A DNA stretch of 64,000 bases from Planctomyces sp. SH-PL62 (GTDB lineage Bacteria; Planctomycetota; Planctomycetia; Isosphaerales; Isosphaeraceae): the NCBI RefSeq assembly GCF_001610895.1, contig NZ_CP011273.1, positions 558,001-622,000 of the forward strand, given 5' to 3'. Made by a program: the position numbers and the translations under genes. Positions 8,952 through 17,342 of the stretch are shown piece by piece. How positions within the stretch are numbered: position 1 is the stretch's first letter; each line of letters opens with the position of its first letter. The notes under the pieces are model-generated. The model worked only from the letters and a program-made list of their open reading frames with translations. It was not told the DNA's origin and ran no database searches.

Positions 8952-10091
8952 TCAGCCGGGCGGCGGCGCGAGCGCGGCCTCGACGGCCTCCAGGCCCTCG
9001 ACCAGCCGGGGGCCGACGCGGGTGGTCAGGTCCTCGTCGAGCGCGACGATCCGGCCGTCGCGCACGGCGGGGACGTCCTTCCAGCCGGGCCGCTTGAGCA
9101 ACCGCTGGCGGCCCGGCTCCGGGCCTCCCCCGCCCCCCATCAGGCCGAACGTGGCGAGGACGACCTCGGGCGCGCGGAGCAGGACCTCCTCGTCGCTGGG
9201 GGTCGGATACCGGGCGGTGACGTCGCCGAAGACGTTGGCTCCGCCCGCCGTCTCGATCATCCGGCCCAGGAACGTCCCCGGCCCGACCGTCATCAAGGGC
9301 TCGTCGTAGAGCAGGTAGAGCACCTTCGGACGCGGCGCCGAACCCCGCGCCGCGACCCGCCGCCGCACGCCGTCGACCCGCTCCTCGAACCGCGTCGCCA
9401 ACGCCTCGGACTCGGCCTCTCGGCCGACCAGCCGGCCGACGACCCGGATGTTGGCGGACACGTCCTCGGGCCGCTCGGCGTCGATCGCCACGACCGTCAG
9501 CCCCAGGCGTTCCAGCGGCTCGACGATCGGCTGCTGCACCCCCCCGGTCGCCAGCACCAGGTCGGGCTTCAGCGCCGCGAGCGCCTCCAGGTTGACGCTC
9601 GACGGGGCCATGCCGCCGATCGACGTCCGCGTCTTCGCCTCGGGCGGATAGTCGTCCATCATCGTCACGCCCACGACCCGGTCGCCCCCCCCCACGGCGA
9701 ACAGGATCTCCGTGTTCGACGGGGCCAGCGACACCACCCGCTCGGCCGGCTTCGCGACGGCGACCCGACGCCCCAGCGAGTCGATCACCTCCACGGGCCA
9801 GCCGCCCGCCTCGCCCGCGAGCCGCGCCGCCTTCACCGGCCCCGACGTGGGCGTATTCTTCTCCTCATGCGTCGCCCCCCGACACCCGACCGTCGCGGCG
9901 ACCAGCGCGACGCACACGAGGCGGACGGGAACCGACGCCAGGCCCCGTGGTGGGGGAAGGTGGCCGAAGGCTGGATGAGGGGGACCGTCATCGCGGACGA
10001 ACCGAGAGAGTGAGGAAATGGGAGTGAATGCCCTGGCGTTTCTCCCCCGCTCCTCACCGCCCGCACCGAGACCAGGACGCTCGCGATTCAT
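8952..10091 (-). CDS. btuF: Vitamin B12 ABC transporter, substrate-binding protein (BtuF-like)
   Basis: 379 residues as read. After a long leader comes a hydrophobic stretch with lipobox-like AATVGCRG near residue 67-74, then a class III binding fold: ERVVSLAPSNTEILFAVGGGDRVVGV and later LLRAPEVVLATFG. The start at 10091 overlaps the BtuD stop as ATGA, which supports it, but leaves an unusual 50-residue stretch before the signal segment. It delivers a corrinoid to the permease. B12 rather than heme or siderophore is inferred from the cobalamin riboswitch at the head of the operon. Confidence 0.85.
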   Translation of the reverse strand: MNRERPGLGAGGEERGRNARAFTPISSLSRFVRDDGPPHPAFGHLPPPRGLASVPVRLVCVALVAATVGCRGATHEEKNTPTSGPVKAARLAGEAGGWPVEVIDSLGRRVAVAKPAERVVSLAPSNTEILFAVGGGDRVVGVTMMDDYPPEAKTRTSIGGMAPSSVNLEALAALKPDLVLATGGVQQPIVEPLERLGLTVVAIDAERPEDVSANIRVVGRLVGREAESEALATRFEERVDGVRRRVAARGSAPRPKVLYLLYDEPLMTVGPGTFLGRMIETAGGANVFGDVTARYPTPSDEEVLLRAPEVVLATFGLMGGGGGPEPGRQRLLKRPGWKDVPAVRDGRIVALDEDLTTRVGPRLVEGLEAVEAALAPPPG

Positions 10092-10912
10092 GATTTCCTC
10101 GCTTGTTCGGCCCCGAGACGAGTCCGGGGCGGGGGCAAGACCATCGGGGCCCCGGAGAGGGGATGGCGGTCGACCAGGACCGGGCAGCGGTAGGCGCGGC
10201 CGAGGAGTTCGGGCGTCAGGACCTCCTCGGGCTCGCCGACCGCCAGCAGCCGGCCCTCGGCCAGCAGCGCGATCCGGTCGGCCCAGGTCGACGCCTGGTT
10301 CAGGTCGTGGAGGCTCGCGACGACCGCCAGGCCCTCATCGCGCGCCAGATGATCGACGAGTTCGAGGATCTCGTACTGGTAATTCCAGTCCAGGTGCGCC
10401 GTGGGCTCGTCCAGCAGCAGGACGCGCGGCTCCTGGGCGAGCGACTGCGCCAGCACCACCCGCTGCCATTCCCCGGCCGAGAGTCGGTCGACGGGGCGGT
10501 CGCGCATCGGGATCAGTCGGGTCCGTTCGAGCACCCGTTCGACCACGGCGCCGTCCTCGTCGGTCATCGGCAGCCACCACCCCCGATGCGCCGCGCGGCC
10601 GAGTCGGACGACCTCGTCGACGGTCAGCCGCGCCCCCTGGGGGTCTTCCTGGAGGGCGATCGCGACCCGGCGATGGGTCCAGGCGCGGCCGCGCCGCCAG
10701 GCGTCCTCGCCATCGACCAGGACCGACCCGGCGCGCGGGGTCAGCAGCCGGGCGAGGGTCCGCAGGAGCGTCGTCTTGCCCGAGCCGTTGGGGCCCAGGA
10801 GCGCCAGCACGGTCCCGGACTCGACGGTCAGCTCGACGTCCGAGAGGACGTCGGGCAGCCCCCGGCCGTAGCCGCAGGAGAGCCCCCGGGCGTGGAGGCG
10901 CGGGACGGTCAT
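10088..10912 (-). CDS. btuD: Vitamin B12 ABC transporter, ATP-binding protein (BtuD-like)
   Basis: 274 residues. Walker A is LLGPNGSGKTTLLRTLA near residue 38-54, the signature is LSAGEWQRVVLAQSLA, Walker B is RVLLLDEPTAHLDW and the switch histidine is in VASLHDLNQAS. This is the iron/B12 (FepC/BtuD) subfamily. It energises uptake through the adjacent BtuC permease. ATG 10912 overlaps the permease stop by four bases (ATGA), and its own stop overlaps the BtuF start in the same way, so the genes are translationally coupled. Confidence 0.92.
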   Translation of the reverse strand: MTVPRLHARGLSCGYGRGLPDVLSDVELTVESGTVLALLGPNGSGKTTLLRTLARLLTPRAGSVLVDGEDAWRRGRAWTHRRVAIALQEDPQGARLTVDEVVRLGRAAHRGWWLPMTDEDGAVVERVLERTRLIPMRDRPVDRLSAGEWQRVVLAQSLAQEPRVLLLDEPTAHLDWNYQYEILELVDHLARDEGLAVVASLHDLNQASTWADRIALLAEGRLLAVGEPEEVLTPELLGRAYRCPVLVDRHPLSGAPMVLPPPRTRLGAEQARKS

Positions 10913-11952
10913 CGGATGGACCTCCTCAGGACCACCAGGAAGAAGGGCCCGCCGAGGATGGCGGTCAGGACGCCCACCGGCAGCTCGATCGGCGCGGCGA
11001 CCGTGCGCGCCAGGTCGTCGGCCAGGACCAGGAGCACGCCGCCGATCAGGCCGCTGGCCGGGATCAGGAAGCGGTGCCTCGCCCCGACGAAGGCCCGCGC
11101 CACGTGTGGGGCGATCAGGCCGACGAAGCCGATCACCCCCGCCACCGCCACGGCGGCGGCCGTCGCCAGGCTGGCCGCCGCGACGATCAGCCCGCTGATC
11201 GGCTTCAAGGGAAGCCCGAGCGCTCGCGCCGGCTGCTCCCCCAGCGAGAGCGCGTCGAGCGGCCGGGAGAGCACGCAGAGGCCCAGGAATCCCACCACGA
11301 TATACGGCCCGCCGCCGATCAGCGCCTCCCACCCGCGTCCCGCCAGGCTCCCCATCAGCCACGAGACGATCCGGGCCAGTTCCTCGTCGTGCAGCACCAT
11401 CAGGAGCCAGACCATCGCCCCCAGGCAACTGCTCACCGCCGACCCCGCCAGCAGCAGCGAGACGATCGGCGCGGGGCCCCACCAGGCCGTCGACATGTAG
11501 ACCAACCCGGCGGCACCCACGGCCCCGAGGAACCCGCCCAGGGGCACCGCCCCGAAGCCCAGCCCCCCCGCCTGGCCGGCCGTCACGATGACCAGCGTCG
11601 CCCCCAGCGCCGAGCCGGTCGACGCCCCGATGACGTAGGGATCGGCCAGGGGATTGCGAAAGAGCCCCTGGTACGCGGCCCCCGCCGCTCCCAGGGCCAG
11701 CCCCACCAGCCCCGCCAGGATCACCCGGGGCATGCGAAGCTCCCAGACGATCGTCGTCACGTCGCGCGAGACCGTCTCGCCCCGGCCCGACAAGGCCCCC
11801 ACGATCTGCCCGATCGAGAGTCGCACCGGGCCGACCCCCAGGCTCGCAATCCCGACCGCGACGAGCAAGGCCGCCAGGAATGCGACGCGGACGAAGCGAT
11901 CGTTCATGATCGCTCCGCTCCAGGGTCGTCGCCCGTCGTCCTGGTGAGTCAT
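10909..11952 (-). CDS. btuC: Vitamin B12 ABC transporter, permease (BtuC/FecCD family)
   Basis: 347 residues from ATG 11952, which overlaps the stop of the upstream DUF1289 gene as ATGA; an inner ATG at 11907 (MNDRFVRVAFL) is an alternative. About ten membrane helices; ELRMPRVILAGLVGLALGAAG and NPLADPYVIGASTGSALGA are hallmark FecCD motifs, with GFVGLIAPHVAR as the ATPase-coupling loop. It forms the inner-membrane channel for corrinoids. Its place behind a cobalamin riboswitch makes B12 the likely cargo. Confidence 0.92.
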   Translation of the reverse strand: MTHQDDGRRPWSGAIMNDRFVRVAFLAALLVAVGIASLGVGPVRLSIGQIVGALSGRGETVSRDVTTIVWELRMPRVILAGLVGLALGAAGAAYQGLFRNPLADPYVIGASTGSALGATLVIVTAGQAGGLGFGAVPLGGFLGAVGAAGLVYMSTAWWGPAPIVSLLLAGSAVSSCLGAMVWLLMVLHDEELARIVSWLMGSLAGRGWEALIGGGPYIVVGFLGLCVLSRPLDALSLGEQPARALGLPLKPISGLIVAAASLATAAAVAVAGVIGFVGLIAPHVARAFVGARHRFLIPASGLIGGVLLVLADDLARTVAAPIELPVGVLTAILGGPFFLVVLRRSIR

Positions 11953-12830
11953 TCGGTCCCCCGATCGGGGAAGAAGAAGGCGCAGGGGGTCAGCGTTTCG
12001 GGCGTCTCCAGGCCGTTGGGGACGTCTCCACAGCCCGCGAGCCGGATCGGCGCCAGCGGCCCCTCGTCGTCCCCGCCCTCGATCGGCCCGAGGGCCTCGA
12101 CCCGGCCGATCGGCCCCAGAACGACCCGCGCGGGGCGAGCCTCGACGATCCGCCGGCCGATCCCCGCGAAAAGGTCGGGCCACTCCAGGCCCAGGCAGTC
12201 GTCGAGCCCTCGGATCAGCTCGGGGTCGTCGGTGCGGAGGCAGAACGCCGCCGCCCGGGCGCCGAGCCCCAGGTCGTAGAGCCGGGCGTCGCGGTCGCGG
12301 GGCTCCACGGCGTCGCGGTCGAGCCCGAGGTACGCCAGGCCGGCTCGGGGCGTCTGACGATTCCGGGGGACCGCCAGGACCAGCGGCCCAGGCGACGGAT
12401 CGTCGCCGGAAGCGACCGGGGCCATGACGCGGACCTGCTCGGGGACGTCGAAACGGACCGCCGCGCGACGGGTCCGGGCGACCAATCGCGCCGATCCGTC
12501 GCGCTCCAGCTCGCTCGTCTCATCGGGCCCGACCCGGAACTCCGAGGCCCCGCCGAAGTGGCCGATCGCCCAGGTTCCGCCCGCGGGCCTCCCCGGCTCC
12601 AGCGTCCCGGCGATGAACGCCATGAGATCGCCCCGGGTCCACTTCAGGCGGTGGAGCCCCACACCCATCCTCGCCCGACGAGCGGGCAGGTCCGCCCAGA
12701 CCCGTTCGAGGAACGCCGCCGGGGCGTCGCGCCAGGCGGCGATCTCCGCCGACGTCCGGGCGCATCCCAGGCAGTGGCTCGACGCGGCGTCGAGGCGGCA
12801 GAATCCGATGCAAGGGCTGGTCGTCGTCAC
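11949..12830 (-). CDS. DUF1289-containing protein heading the B12 operon
   Basis: 293 residues from GTG 12830. Residues 5-35 form a DUF1289 domain (SPCIGFCRLD and CLGCARTSAEIAAW) with four cysteines at about 7, 11, 20 and 23, a probable metal or Fe-S site. The remaining 250 residues have no family I recognise. It is the first gene after the cobalamin riboswitch and is coupled to btuC by an ATGA overlap, so its expression should fall when B12 is plentiful. A role in corrinoid handling is inferred from context only. No ATG suits this start; GTG is chosen because the DUF1289 motif begins immediately after it. Confidence 0.75.
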   Translation of the reverse strand: MTTTSPCIGFCRLDAASSHCLGCARTSAEIAAWRDAPAAFLERVWADLPARRARMGVGLHRLKWTRGDLMAFIAGTLEPGRPAGGTWAIGHFGGASEFRVGPDETSELERDGSARLVARTRRAAVRFDVPEQVRVMAPVASGDDPSPGPLVLAVPRNRQTPRAGLAYLGLDRDAVEPRDRDARLYDLGLGARAAAFCLRTDDPELIRGLDDCLGLEWPDLFAGIGRRIVEARPARVVLGPIGRVEALGPIEGGDDEGPLAPIRLAGCGDVPNGLETPETLTPCAFFFPDRGTE

Positions 12831-13002
12831 GGACGCGACCCCCCGTCTCCGACGAACGGACGGCGCGCCGTCGCCGAAACCCGGCCGCAAGGCCGGTCGA
12901 CGCGGGAGCGATGGAAGACCGAGGACATCGAAGCAGACCTTTCCGCCGGGCCGGGCGGCGCTCGTTGGGCACGGCCGGGCGGCCATGCAGGAAAATCGAT
13001 CC

Positions 13003-13180
13003 CGACGGGCAGGTCTTCTGGCTCTCGGCTCGTGACGGTCCCGGACGGCCTTCCCGCCCCATTCCGGGCAGTGGCGCAACGTCCGGGGCCTCGCCGATCA
13101 CAGCGGCGGCCCCGCGCCGGATTCTCACCGGCTTCCCTATTCTCTCCCCCTTCGCGATCGAAGCTCGGGAGCACCCGTCG
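13003..13180 (-). promoter_or_regulatory. Cobalamin (AdoCbl-type) riboswitch
   Basis: On the minus strand the RNA shows the conserved core: GAAGCCGGTGAGAATCCGGC, then GCCGCCGCTGTGATC, GCCACTGCCC, GGGAAGGC, and the B12 box AGCCAGAAGACCTGCC. The P1 stem is a perfect 7-bp pair, CGACGGG (plus-strand 13174-13180) with CCCGTCG (13003-13009). It lies about 170 bases upstream of the DUF1289-btuCDF operon. Known function: bound cobalamin represses the downstream genes by blocking transcription or translation. Confidence 0.93.
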
Positions 13181-13384
13181 GGCGAACGATTTCAATTAGA
13201 CTCGCGGGGGCACGATTTGCAAAGGGGGGACGTCGCCGAGACCGACCTTCGGTGGTCGATCGACCGGCGTCATCTCGTCGAAGATCAGGCCCCGTGGACC
13301 TCGCAACGGATCAACCCCACACCGCGACGATCATGATCTGCGAGTGCGCCTCTCTCGTGGACGATCAAAACCCGCACCCCCTCG
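13181..13384. other. Region upstream of the riboswitch, 3' of the NB-ARC gene
   Basis: About 200 bases that should hold the promoter of the B12 operon. TTTCAATTAGACTCG near 13190-13203 is the only AT-rich spot, but I could not define -35 and -10 boxes with confidence, and I see no terminator for the NB-ARC gene. Confidence 0.35.
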
Positions 13385-16300
13385 CTAAACGCCTTCCAGC
13401 CTCAAAAATTGGACCCGACCCAGCAGGTCCCCCGCGACGATCGTCACCGCGTCGTCCGCGATCGCGCATGCGTGGTAGGGGCCGTCGCCGACGAATTCCG
13501 CGAGGAGAATCCCGGTTCCCAGGTCCCACACCTTCATCGTCCGGTCATCTGAGCCGGAGACGGCGCGTCGGCCGTCTGCCGACATCGCCAGCGTGGTGAC
13601 CCGGTCGTCGTGCCCCTCGATCCTGAGAAGCAATGCGTCCGAGCCCAGGTCCCAAAGGCTGAGCGTCCCGTCGTTGAAGCCGCAGAGGACGAGGCGGCAG
13701 TCGCCCGACGCCGCCACCGCGTTCATGCCCGTCCTTCGGTTCGGCAGCGTACGAATCGAGGCGCCCGAGTCCAGGTCCCAGAGCTTGAGCGTCCCTCCGT
13801 AAGAGCCGGAGACGGCGCGCCGACCGTCTGCCGACGCCGTCACAGCCAGGACCCAGTCGCGGTGTCCCGCCCGCGTACTGATTGACTCACCGGAGTCAAG
13901 GTCCCAGAACCTGAGAGTCCCATCGGTCAAGCCCGAGACGGCGCGTCGGCCGTCGGCCGACATCGCCAGCGCAAGGACCGGGCCGTCGTGCCCCTCCAGC
14001 GGCCGAATCAGCGAGCCCGAGCCCAGGTCCCAAAGGCTGAGCGTCCCGTCGTTGAAGCCGCAGAGGACGAGGCGGCAGTCGCCCGACGCCGCCACCGCGT
14101 TCATGCCCGTCCTTCGGTTCGGCAGCGTACGAATCGAGGCGCCCGAGTCCAGGTCCCAGAGTCTGAGCGTCCCGTCGTCGTCGTTGGAGACGGCGCGGCG
14201 GCCGTCGGCCGACGCCGCCACCGCACGGACTTGGCCGCTGCACGCCTCAAAAGTGTGCATCGAGGCGAGCGAGTCCAGGTCCCAGAGCCTGAGCGTGCCG
14301 TCTTCGGAGCCGGAGACGGCGCGGCGGCCGTCGGCCGACGCCGCCACCGCACGGATCCCACCGCCGCCTTTCAGCGTGCGAATCGAGGCGAGCGAGTCCA
14401 GGTCCCAGAGCCTGAGCGTGCCGTCGTCGGAGCTGGAGACGGCGCGTCGGCCGTCGGCCGACATCGCCACCGCACGGAGCCGGCCCTCGTGGCCTTCGAG
14501 GGTGCGAATCGAGACGCCCGAGTCCAGGTCCCAGAGCCTGAGCGTGCCGTCGTCGGAGCCGGAGACGGCGCGGCGGCCGTCGGCCGACGCCGCCACCGCA
14601 CGGACCGGGCCGCCGTGGCCCTCCAGCTCGCGAATCGGGGCGTGCGCGTCCAGGTCCCAGAGCCTGAGCGTGCCGTCGTCGGAGCCGGAGACGGCGCGTC
14701 GGCCGTCGGTCGACATCGCCACCGCACGGAGCCGGCCCTCGTGGCCTTCGAGGGTGCGAATCGAGACGCCCGAGTCCAGGTCCCAGAGCCTGAGCGTGCC
14801 GTCGTCGGAGCCGGAGACGGCGCGGCGGCCGTCGGCCGACGCCGCCACCGCACGGACCGGGCCGCCGTGGCCCTCCAGCTCGCGAATCGGGGCGTGCGCG
14901 TCCAGATCCCAGAGCCTGAGCGTGCCGTCGTCGGAGCCGGAGACGGCGCGTCGGCCGTCGGCCGACATCGCCACCGCAAGGACTCCTCCGCCGCACCCTT
15001 CAAAAGTGCGAATCGAAGTGCCCGAGTCCAGGTCCCAGAGTCTGAGCGTCCCGTCGCTGGAGCCGGAGAGGGCGCGGCGGCCGTCGGCCGACGCCGCCAC
15101 CGCACGAATCCCACCGCCGCCGCCTTCCAGCGTGCGAATCAGCGCACCGCCGGGAGGGGTCAACGCCTCGGCCAGCGGACGCAGCCAGGGACCACGCTGG
15201 TTGCGCTGGACGCGGGGCAGGAAGTCCCTGATCGCCGCGGACTCCGAGCCGTGCAGGCGGCCGATCATCTGGCCGGCGAACAGAGAGGCGTCGCGGGAGA
15301 GGGCGTGGGCGGAGAGTCGGATGGCTCCCTCCACGAGCGCCAGCTCCGGGTCGCCGCGGAGCGCCTCGAAGTCGGCCAGCAAGGCGTTGGAGTCGGCGGC
15401 TTGGAGCTTCTTCGAAAGCCAGCGGGGATCCAGGAGGAGTCCCCGCAGGACCTCCTGCCGTCCCGCGTGGATCAAGTGGTAGGCGAGCCACCGCCAGGCG
15501 TAGGCGTCCGGCAGTTGATGGAGGTCGCCCCAGGAGTCGAGCAGCCGGGCGTGAAGCGGAGCCGGGTCGGAGACCTCGTCCGCCAGGTAGGCCCGGATCA
15601 CGTCGTGCAGGCTGAGGGTCTGGGCTCGCAGGTCGAGCCTGAGCAGCGACAGGTCGGCCAGACGCTGGGAGAGTTCCTCGGCCTCGTAGTCGTCGAGCCC
15701 CCATAGGGCCGCCGCCGCGGCGAGGGGGATGTCGACGTCTTCGGGAAAGATCGCCAGTTCGGTGAAGCGGCGACGATCCTCGGCCTCCAGCAGGTCCGTA
15801 CTGAGCCCGATCGAGGCGGCGAACGAGTCGTTTCGCTCGCCCGATTTCGGCCGAGCGAGTACGTCCACGCCCTTGCGGTCGAGGCCCCTGTTGAGGTAGT
15901 CGAGGGCCCCTTCGATCGAGTCGCCCCGCGCGACCCGAAGTCGCAGCGCCGAGCCGGCCAGTTCCAGCAGCAGGGGCCACTCGCCGAGGCGACGGGCCAG
16001 GGACAGGAACGAACCGTACGTCGCATCCGAAGCCTCGACCCGCGAAAGGAGCATCGCTACGCCCTGCTCGGGGGTCATCGCGTCGACCTCCACGCGACGG
16101 GCTTCGACCGCGACTTCGAACTGTCGAGTCGTGACCAGACGGGTGCATCGAACGGCCCCGCGCAGGAAGGGACGCAGGTGGGCCGCGTCCCAGACGTCGT
16201 CCAGGACGAGCAAGCAAGGCCGTCCCGCCAGTTCGTCCGCCAGTCGGCGCGAGCCGTCCTCGACGTCGCGGACGGCTGCGGGCTCGCCGGTGAGGGTCTC

Positions 16301-16726
16301 GATGAGGCGGGCCAGTGCGGTCGGCAGGTCGGGCTGCTGGCCGAGCGTGGTCCAGAGGACGCCGTCGGGATGGGCCTTCCTGATCTCGGGGTCGTGGCAG
16401 AGGGCGGTCGCCAGGGTCGTCTTGCCCAACCCGCCGGCGCCACGGAGAGCGGTCGTGATCGCGACGGACTTCCCCGGATCGGAGGCTAGGAGCAGCTCAC
16501 GCAGCCGACCGAACTCCTCGGGCCGAGCCACGAATCCCGCGGGCAGGTCGGGGGCCTGGAACGGGACGCGGCGTGATGGAACGCGATCAAAGACACCCCC
16601 GAACGAATCGCAAGGACCTCTTGTAGAGGAGCGAATCCTTGCCGGCCGGCTTGCAGATCGTGACGTGGTCGTCGTCCATAGGCACGGGGATGACGCCGGC
16701 GATCCCGGGGTCGGCGCTGGTTTCAT
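13385..16726 (-). CDS. STAND (NLR-like) NTPase: NB-ARC ATPase with about 14 WD40 blades
   Basis: 1113 residues as read. The first 45 or so are a shadow of the hydrolase gene; clear homology starts around PFQAPDLPAGFVARPEEFGRL. NB-ARC: Walker A GAGGLGKTT at about 96-104, Walker B LLVLDDVWD at 172-180, then a winged-helix/helical region (ELAIFPEDVDIPLAAAAALW; TLSLHDVIRAYL). From about residue 525 there are 13 WD40 units ending in LRLWDLDS-like strands plus a last degenerate one, enough for two seven-bladed propellers. The units are nearly identical. No independent start codon suits the NB-ARC frame, and one base fewer at 16596-16600 fuses it to the hydrolase. Family role: signal-triggered oligomeric switch, often in defence or self-recognition. 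Confidence 0.88.
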   Translation of the reverse strand: MKPAPTPGSPASSPCLWTTTTSRSASRPARIRSSTRGPCDSFGGVFDRVPSRRVPFQAPDLPAGFVARPEEFGRLRELLLASDPGKSVAITTALRGAGGLGKTTLATALCHDPEIRKAHPDGVLWTTLGQQPDLPTALARLIETLTGEPAAVRDVEDGSRRLADELAGRPCLLVLDDVWDAAHLRPFLRGAVRCTRLVTTRQFEVAVEARRVEVDAMTPEQGVAMLLSRVEASDATYGSFLSLARRLGEWPLLLELAGSALRLRVARGDSIEGALDYLNRGLDRKGVDVLARPKSGERNDSFAASIGLSTDLLEAEDRRRFTELAIFPEDVDIPLAAAAALWGLDDYEAEELSQRLADLSLLRLDLRAQTLSLHDVIRAYLADEVSDPAPLHARLLDSWGDLHQLPDAYAWRWLAYHLIHAGRQEVLRGLLLDPRWLSKKLQAADSNALLADFEALRGDPELALVEGAIRLSAHALSRDASLFAGQMIGRLHGSESAAIRDFLPRVQRNQRGPWLRPLAEALTPPGGALIRTLEGGGGGIRAVAASADGRRALSGSSDGTLRLWDLDSGTSIRTFEGCGGGVLAVAMSADGRRAVSGSDDGTLRLWDLDAHAPIRELEGHGGPVRAVAASADGRRAVSGSDDGTLRLWDLDSGVSIRTLEGHEGRLRAVAMSTDGRRAVSGSDDGTLRLWDLDAHAPIRELEGHGGPVRAVAASADGRRAVSGSDDGTLRLWDLDSGVSIRTLEGHEGRLRAVAMSADGRRAVSSSDDGTLRLWDLDSLASIRTLKGGGGIRAVAASADGRRAVSGSEDGTLRLWDLDSLASMHTFEACSGQVRAVAASADGRRAVSNDDDGTLRLWDLDSGASIRTLPNRRTGMNAVAASGDCRLVLCGFNDGTLSLWDLGSGSLIRPLEGHDGPVLALAMSADGRRAVSGLTDGTLRFWDLDSGESISTRAGHRDWVLAVTASADGRRAVSGSYGGTLKLWDLDSGASIRTLPNRRTGMNAVAASGDCRLVLCGFNDGTLSLWDLGSDALLLRIEGHDDRVTTLAMSADGRRAVSGSDDRTMKVWDLGTGILLAEFVGDGPYHACAIADDAVTIVAGDLLGRVQFLRLEGV
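13430..15145 (-). repeat. 126-bp tandem DNA repeats encoding WD40 blades
   Basis: Each blade is coded by about 126 bp, and similarity is strong at DNA level. The two-blade block 14479-14730 is repeated with only a few differences at 14731-14977 (exact 252-bp offset). A second block around 13648-13785 recurs 378 bp further (three blades) at 14026-14163, including the odd NRRTGMNAVAASGDC blade. This points to recent duplication or gene conversion within the gene. Confidence 0.9.
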
Positions 16727-17342
16727 TGACGACCAGGAATCCAGCCGTCGGCAGCTTCTCGCAGTAGACCTCGACTTTCACGTCCAGCGTCTGGTGGTTG
16801 TTGCGGAACCAGGTGTTGAGTTCTCGCAGACGCGGGTCATGGGCCCGCAGATCGTCGACCGCGACCGTGTTACGCAAGACCAGGCTCAGGTGCTTGACCC
16901 AGCCGGCGATGTCCGATCCGGAGTGCGGAGTCGAGACGAAAACGATCCCCCGCGTCTGGTCGACGACGCGCCGCCAGTTCGGGTCGCCGAAATCCCGGCC
17001 GTGCCGCAGCAATTGCTTGACCAGCAGGCCGCCCATGCTGTGGGTGATGTAGACGGTCGGCCGCTCGCCCAACCCCTCGACGTCCAGGACGGCCAGGGCG
17101 TTGGTGGCGCGGTCGGCCAGGGGCATGGCGTGGCCCTTCCAGGCCATTGATGCGGCGTCGTAGTCGAGAAGCCAGACGCCGACGTCGGGCAGGTCCTCGG
17201 CCAGCCACTCCGGCCAGGTCGGGCCGGCGCTCCCGGCGGGCCGCCAGGTGGAGCGGGCGTCGCCGTCCAGGCCATGCACGAAGACGACGTCGCCGCGACG
17301 TTGGGAATCGTCGCATCCGGAGACCTTGATCAGCTTGCTCAC
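16587..17342 (-). CDS. SERAC1-like alpha/beta hydrolase, probable effector domain of the NB-ARC protein
   Basis: 251 residues. The oxyanion segment is VVFVHGLDGDARSTW (about 19-33), the nucleophile Ser102 lies in THSMGG, and the catalytic His is probably H226 in DDDHVTICKP. This is the lipase/esterase fold found in SERAC1 and at the N-terminus of many STAND proteins. It stops at 16587 after SLRFVRG. Removing one base from the five-base run at 16596-16600 makes the frame flow through FVRGVFDRVPSRRVPFQAPD into NB-ARC. I infer a single hydrolase-NB-ARC-WD40 protein; the alternative is two overlapping genes. Substrate unknown, lipid or peptidoglycan esters possible. Confidence 0.8.
   Translation of the reverse strand: MSKLIKVSGCDDSQRRGDVVFVHGLDGDARSTWRPAGSAGPTWPEWLAEDLPDVGVWLLDYDAASMAWKGHAMPLADRATNALAVLDVEGLGERPTVYITHSMGGLLVKQLLRHGRDFGDPNWRRVVDQTRGIVFVSTPHSGSDIAGWVKHLSLVLRNTVAVDDLRAHDPRLRELNTWFRNNHQTLDVKVEVYCEKLPTAGFLVVNETSADPGIAGVIPVPMDDDHVTICKPAGKDSLLYKRSLRFVRGCL

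Follow-up and report, generated by a model that had tools for sequence, protein, structure and literature searches.

Proteins of the DUF6925 family recur with vitamin B12 uptake genes and cobalamin riboswitches, and a variant of this family, fused to a four-cysteine DUF1289 domain, is encoded ahead of BtuCDF-like importer genes in Planctomyces sp. SH-PL62. Within the stretch of this genome analyzed here (the window, 64,000 nucleotides), a cobalamin riboswitch is followed by the fusion gene and then by btuC-, btuD- and btuF-like genes, all on the minus strand (Table 1). The B12 link of DUF6925 is strong, and the fusion protein very probably belongs to corrinoid acquisition. As for mechanism, which we infer by analogy, we favor a cytosolic corrinoid-handling protein that would act after BtuCD, as HutX and ChuX do in heme uptake, a reading to which we assign a probability of about 0.5.

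Heme uptake has named cytosolic carriers; to our knowledge, little is known in bacteria of what becomes of corrinoids once they have passed the inner-membrane importer and before they reach the enzymes that depend on them. With its recurrence behind B12 riboswitches and beside btuCDF, DUF6925 is a concrete, testable candidate for that step, and a DUF6925 carrier, if true, would close the gap from BtuCD to adenosyltransferase.

The association was assessed in the best 80 of 313 confirmed relatives of unfused DUF6925 on genome contigs, nearly all named as alphaproteobacteria, with a leaning to Methylobacterium. A same-strand cobalamin riboswitch lies no more than 6.5 kb upstream in 56/80 loci, and at least three Btu-like genes lie within 7 kb in 56/80; both features are present in 52/80 and either in 60/80. 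Because genomes carry three to seven such riboswitches (nine genomes counted), we estimate the chance expectation for this co-occurrence at well under 1%. Rfam was run on part of these loci, and 21 Rfam matches were the source of our own riboswitch model, R1, which hits them by construction; the window aptamer, one of the 21, is recovered at 12991-13191. The GC-position gene caller mis-called some frames, and its coordinates are approximate. Of seven DUF6925 reference pieces used to scan the loci, one (from L007) was in a wrong reading frame; the stray matches noticed from it are in L007, and neither the Btu nor the riboswitch counts depend on it.

Plasmids searched with the window protein (tblastn) yielded 58 records, largely alphaproteobacterial among the matches listed. 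In six of the eight plasmid neighborhoods opened (Shinella, Methylobacterium, Methylorubrum, Phaeobacter, Azospirillum and Phyllobacterium), the DUF6925 gene, annotated ‘hypothetical protein’, directly follows the btu importer genes or a CbiZ gene behind them. The Novacetimonas gene diverges from btuBFCD and lies ahead of cobyric acid synthase, and the eighth neighborhood is that of the Cereibacter fusion, near btuFCD and cob genes. A cobalamin riboswitch is present at seven of the eight loci, the exception being Azospirillum. Among 385 alphaproteobacterial genomes drawn evenly, 26 also contain the domain. Of the 27 places listed there, 20 were fetched with wide flanks, and a riboswitch (either strand, either side of the gene) occurs in 11 of these 20 regions; in several it lies downstream of DUF6925, preceding btuB, or on the opposite strand. 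As a separate observation, the gene after DUF6925 at L009:7915-8445 and L011:7891-8415 is AAA_33 P-loop kinase-like, with a relative present in 16/80 loci.

The B12 link follows DUF6925 and not the DUF1289 cysteine domain, since a cobalamin riboswitch was found in the flanks (∼1.5 kb) of none of 30 alphaproteobacterial DUF1289 loci lacking DUF6925 (30 of 55 places listed). Proteins of the latter kind, such as Escherichia coli YdhL, share the Cys4 domain with the window protein but not, at those 30 loci, a nearby riboswitch; YdhL appears in a table of one E. coli screen for oxidant-resistance genes (PMC8228696). A preliminary description of the locus, made from the sequence alone, had recognized the riboswitch, the four-cysteine DUF1289 motif and the btuC, btuD and btuF genes, all of which are borne out by Rfam and Pfam matches, and had considered the C-terminal ∼250 residues unassigned, whereas they match DUF6925. 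Its proposal that the DUF1289 protein works with corrinoids is supported as regards membership in corrinoid acquisition, with the correction that the link follows the DUF6925 half. The observation it had set against its own proposal was C-terminal homologs that never occur with B12 genes or riboswitches; the opposite was found, DUF6925 recurring with both.

Table 1. Features of the riboswitch-controlled operon in the window.
Feature	Coordinates	Strand	Evidence
Cobalamin riboswitch aptamer (RF00174)	12991..13193	-	108.5 bits (cut-off 31.5), full model 1-189
DUF1289-DUF6925 fusion gene, 293 amino acids, GTG start	11949..12830	-	Translation and Pfam
DUF1289 domain	12675..12818	-	PF06945, 52.4 bits (cut-off 27), E 4.7e-14
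DUF6925 domain	11967..12575	-	PF21973, 115.6 bits (gathering score 27), E 3.8e-33, profile 16-227 of 300
btuC-like permease (FecCD)	10909..11907 (probable start); alternative upstream ATG 11952	-	PF01032, 2.5e-89; start by comparison with congeners
btuD-like ATPase	10088..10912	-	PF00005 (ABC_tran), 8.8e-34; ATGA junction
btuF-like substrate-binding protein	8952..10091	-	PF01497 (Peripla_BP_2), 5.1e-34

The window aptamer exceeds the gathering score of the RF00174 covariance model and is the sole Rfam match to do so within the 64 kb. Neither a sigma-70 promoter nor an intrinsic terminator was found near it, and the stretch of RNA leading from the aptamer to the start codon folds no better than shuffled sequences. 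A FecCD permease, an ATP-binding cassette (ABC) ATPase and a Peripla_BP_2 protein are encoded in a single operon, as in an importer of this type, yet the B12 specificity of this importer rests on the riboswitch, since scores fall below the NCBIfam equivalog cut-offs for BtuC (178.5 of 334 and 253.4 of 461), BtuD (128 of 281) and BtuF (108.5 of 234).

The preliminary description had all genes of the operon linked by ATGA overlaps. These tetranucleotides are present at all three junctions (11952-11949, 10912-10909 and 10091-10088), but the probable btuC start is an ATG at 11907 that lines up with the starts in congeners and is preceded by GGAGCGGAG; this would leave ∼41 nucleotides after the stop codon of the fusion gene, so that the first overlap is not certain. 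In three congeners, which share the GTG start of the fusion gene, a btuC GTG overlaps the stop codon of the DUF gene by four nucleotides as GTGA. At the other end of the operon, the btuF N-terminus (10091-9900) contains extra residues between MNR and a lipobox-like signal when compared with congener G005, and extra, differing sequence is likewise found ahead of btuF in G003 and G004.

DUF6925, as defined by the Pfam match, is a family of unknown function that makes up ∼200 C-terminal residues of the window protein; an NCBIfam search with the whole fusion protein returned no match up to E 1. The window copy lacks the last ∼70 positions of the profile (a C-terminal helical part), and the other fusions end there too. 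The DUF1289 half, the only occurrence of this domain in the genome, contains the motif C7-x3-C11-x8-C20-x2-C23 (CIGFC...CLGC), whose four cysteines are kept in 10/10 fusions. Residues E97, D171, D186, R199, R235, R243 and E245 (window numbering) are strongly conserved polar positions of DUF6925. By our own reading of the family alignment, rather than by any Pfam rule, a GPHTHxLP motif is present in 39/45 unfused and 6/10 fused rows, with one histidine of GPHTH present in 50/55 rows, and an RTH-A motif in 28/45 unfused rows and 0/10 fusions. Compared with unfused DUF6925, with which it shares the B12-uptake setting of most of the 80 relatives, the window protein thus has DUF1289 added, is shorter, lacks GPHTHxLP and RTH, and is encoded by the first rather than the last gene of its operon.

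A maximum-likelihood tree built from 54 DUF6925 rows separates all 10 fusions from the other rows at a branch supported at 100/98; inside this clade, the four rows from the genus of the window group together (100/100) on a long branch (1.26). The simplest reading of this tree would be a single fusion event and transfer into the planctomycete genus, and the clade suggests which parts can be added or lost. A cobalamin riboswitch lies within ∼1.1 kb of 8/10 fusion loci: the window, three congeners, Cereibacter, and three (L125, L130, L132) of five further alphaproteobacterial loci, the L125 riboswitch being on the strand opposite to the fusion. No riboswitch was found at L127 and L131, nor in the larger regions around them, L134 and L138, of which L138 spans just 4 kb. 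Neighbors of these five fusions include cbtA, CbiZ with a short btuC-like gene, ALAD with a SOUL heme protein, and metal-type ABC genes. The fusion on Cereibacter azotoformans pORIO2 (L007:6962-7906) resembles the window protein in having both domains (34.8% identity over 98%) and in lying behind a cobalamin riboswitch near btuFCD. In contrast to the window protein, it keeps PHTHLLP, lies near cobyrinate and cobyric acid synthase genes, and is separated from its riboswitch by a 98-amino-acid open reading frame (L007:6666-6962) with no Pfam match.

DUF1559-type genes of the host would fit a planctomycete; one of them, inside the window, matched only a gene of a Singulisphaera plasmid when compared with plasmids. 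Among 99 genomes drawn from relatives of the host (host included), DUF6925 exceeds the cut-off in four, all of them among the six genomes of the genus; a fifth genome, G084, has a weak match (E 9.9e-4) with an internal stop. The three congeners with DUF6925 all carry a cobalamin riboswitch as well, and congener G002 has neither a btuC nor a DUF6925 match. Proteins with a B12-binding domain are encoded in 6/6 genomes of the genus and CbiC/CobH, a step of corrin-ring synthesis, in 0/6, and the genus therefore probably depends on imported corrinoid. It would offer an uncluttered setting in which to test the need for the gene.

Cobalamin riboswitches permit expression when B12 is low, so that a gene behind one is expected to be expressed when B12 is scarce. 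In the mechanism that we favor, low B12 would thus allow expression of the operon, and BtuF and BtuCD, by homology, would import the corrinoid. The DUF6925 half would then bind and shield, in the cytosol, the corrinoid delivered by BtuCD and pass it on; alternatively, it may prepare the corrinoid for adenosylation or for apo-enzymes (adenosyltransferase, B12 enzymes). The DUF1289 half would be a fused metal-binding module (zinc or Fe-S) for docking, stability or redox. This proposal draws on a parallel between HutX, ChuX and ChuS beside heme importers and DUF6925 beside BtuCDF. HutX, ChuX and ChuS are cytosolic heme binders of similar fold, encoded in heme uptake operons (PMC10404700). DUF6925 proteins resemble them in being encoded by uptake-operon genes and may, in the case of HutX and ChuX, be alike in predicted fold; they differ in lacking detectable sequence kinship, in being longer, and in a ligand that would be a corrinoid.

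The structural side of this parallel comes from AlphaFold models. For an unfused Bosea member, modeled with a good predicted local distance difference test (pLDDT) score of 87.5, the VIA ranking is led by 3na2 (Z 7.2, 124 residues, unknown function) and 3fm2 (putative heme-binding, Z 5.8), followed at ranks 3-7 by HutX (5.3), ChuX (5.3 and 5.2), 2hqv (5.1) and 2ph0 (4.7), the last two untitled as to function, and then by sliding clamps (3.6). The matches to HutX and ChuX (Z 5.2-5.3) extend over 113-115 residues with a root-mean-square deviation of 3.0-3.3, and values of Z below 8 can arise by chance or reflect a widespread arrangement; the fold likeness of the unfused member to these cytosolic heme carriers is thus a weak hint. 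Of the three roles that the preliminary description had suggested (carrier, reductase partner or metal donor), the predicted fold taken alone would weakly favor a carrier-like one. The model of the window protein itself is fair (pLDDT 74.9), and only 3na2 reaches Z 5 with it (Z 6.8).

Several observations weigh against a HutX/ChuX-like role in corrinoid uptake. HutX and ChuX are absent from the 50 listed structural matches of the window model. Foldseek returned nothing at E ≤ 0.001 for either model: for the Bosea model, 3na2 has probability 0.97 (E 0.03), and the HutX/ChuX, 2hqv and 2ph0 rows, none significant, have probabilities of 0.11-0.18; for the window model, the top rows are sliding clamps (probability ∼0.06). 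Kinship in sequence to HutX/HemS was rejected: hhalign, run against a small 11-row profile, gave a probability of 0.2%, and neither HutX/ChuX (PF06228) nor HemS (PF05171) gave a Pfam match in 43 members at E up to 10, with filters that drop most matches above 0.1. GPHTHxLP, kept in most relatives, is missing from the window protein and from all 4/4 rows of its genus, and a mechanism built on those histidines therefore cannot hold for the window protein as is. In congener G005, a riboswitch (L188:6842-6633) precedes btuC (6372-5359), btuD and btuF, no DUF gene intervenes, and the genome has no DUF6925 match. Finally, 20/80 loci have neither an upstream riboswitch nor at least three Btu-like genes; in about four of them (L046, L052, L079 and L080) the gene lies close to the end of a contig or adjoins a single Btu gene, and the remainder look like orphan copies. 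In two of the genomes checked, G103 and G104, a btu-linked copy coexists with a second, orphan one; DUF6925 is therefore not solely a part of uptake operons.

Ten neighbors of eight orphan loci showed no clear shared theme: they comprise GMP synthase, a TonB receptor, an AMP-binding enzyme (twice), a PQQ-type dehydrogenase, EamA, an HI0933 flavoprotein, an esterase, a glyoxalase and one protein without a match, although genes of the same size recur upstream in some orphan loci. A search of PDB sequences with a profile of the family alignment gave nothing credible (best E 0.06). Taken as a whole, the fuller proposal, that DUF6925 is an unrecognized cytosolic corrinoid carrier or processor, the corrin counterpart of HutX/ChuX, and that the window variant arose through fusion to a Cys4 metal domain, transfer to planctomycetes and remodeling of the histidine motif, is tentative, and we consider it less likely than not.

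Rather than a carrier, DUF6925 might be an enzyme that remodels corrinoids or removes a ligand (a hydrolase or decyanase), CbiZ- or CblC-like in role. The strongly conserved polar residues and the widespread GPHTH histidine would suit catalysis, and the position of the Novacetimonas gene points the same way. In addition, CbiZ is missing from 16/17 genomes searched, all six of the genus of the window among them; 15 of the 17 have DUF6925. Replacement of CbiZ, as judged by mutual exclusion, is nonetheless not clean: in Shinella and Phaeobacter, the adenosylcobinamide amidohydrolase CbiZ (PF01955) and DUF6925 share riboswitch-controlled btu operons, CbiZ also lies beside one fusion, and a weaker CbiZ-like match occurs in one Methylorubrum locus (L021). 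DUF6925 is therefore not a simple CbiZ substitute, and the two families differ in that neither the window protein nor 43 aligned DUF6925 members have a Pfam CbiZ match. The GPHTH histidines are also lost in the four proteins of the window genus. We consider an enzymatic role fairly unlikely.

Some fusion loci suggest a connection to metals, in which the DUF1289 cysteines would carry metal and the fusion would link cobalt import with corrinoid status. One fusion follows a riboswitch and cbtA, a proposed cobalt transporter; one lies beside a Zn/Mn-type ABC transporter (best NCBIfam matches below cut-offs); one adjoins a riboswitch that faces an SBP_bac_5 gene; and the Cereibacter fusion is ∼6 kb from cbiM. 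Unfused DUF6925, however, occurs mostly with btu genes, DUF1289 without DUF6925 has no B12 link, and the absence of CbiC/CobH leaves free cobalt without an obvious corrin use in the genus of the window, so that cobalt or metal supply appears improbable. An accessory or regulatory subunit of BtuCD, held at the fixed stoichiometry that the preliminary description had read from the tight coupling of the genes, is very improbable: the close spacing to btuC in the window, the GTGA overlap in three congeners and, on four plasmids of alphaproteobacteria, the overlap of the DUF6925 and BtuD genes would suit it, but the G005 operon without the DUF gene argues against fixed stoichiometry, as do orphan copies, the loci with neither B12 feature, and a gene order that is not kept (in alphaproteobacterial plasmids, after btuD or CbiZ, or divergent from btuBFCD).

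Neither domain is new, each being catalogued as a DUF, nor is the type of operon. What appears to be new, as far as the literature searched goes, is the B12 link across the family, the clade of fusions and the loss of the motif. No paper on DUF6925 was found. In the accessible parts of the literature on B12 uptake (including PMC3621897 and PMC2667541), none naming a DUF6925 gene was found, and a mention in a 2003 comparative study of B12 regulons is possible. The accessible part of the pCMU01 paper describes btuB, btuF, btuC and btuD behind a riboswitch and leaves the gene after btuD unmentioned. For structure 3na2, there was nothing relevant among the matches listed (8 of 22).

Upstream of the window riboswitch, on the same strand, a protein with 11 WD40 matches and a P-loop-like stretch (13385-16726) adjoins a weak alpha/beta hydrolase match (16587-17342). 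Elsewhere in this genome, two cobalamin riboswitches (G000:C1:3544499-3544702 and 401199-401397; L194 and L196) lie ahead of DUF4465 genes (5.9e-53 and 8.4e-40) with PEP-CTERM tails. DUF4465 proteins are reported to bind B12 in Bacteroides (PMC13398666), and the planctomycete proteins may be exported B12 catchers. A further riboswitch (G000:C1:651994-652184, L195) precedes a gene for a PEP-CTERM protein in which Pfam recognizes no additional domain, and one at G000:C1:2064347-2064547 (L193) precedes a DUF1559 prepilin-like gene. At G000:C1:3468113-3469639 (L192), two cobalamin riboswitches lie 1.3 kb apart, one ahead of a gene for a ribonucleotide reductase large subunit with an ATP cone, the other ahead of an FA_desaturase_2 gene.

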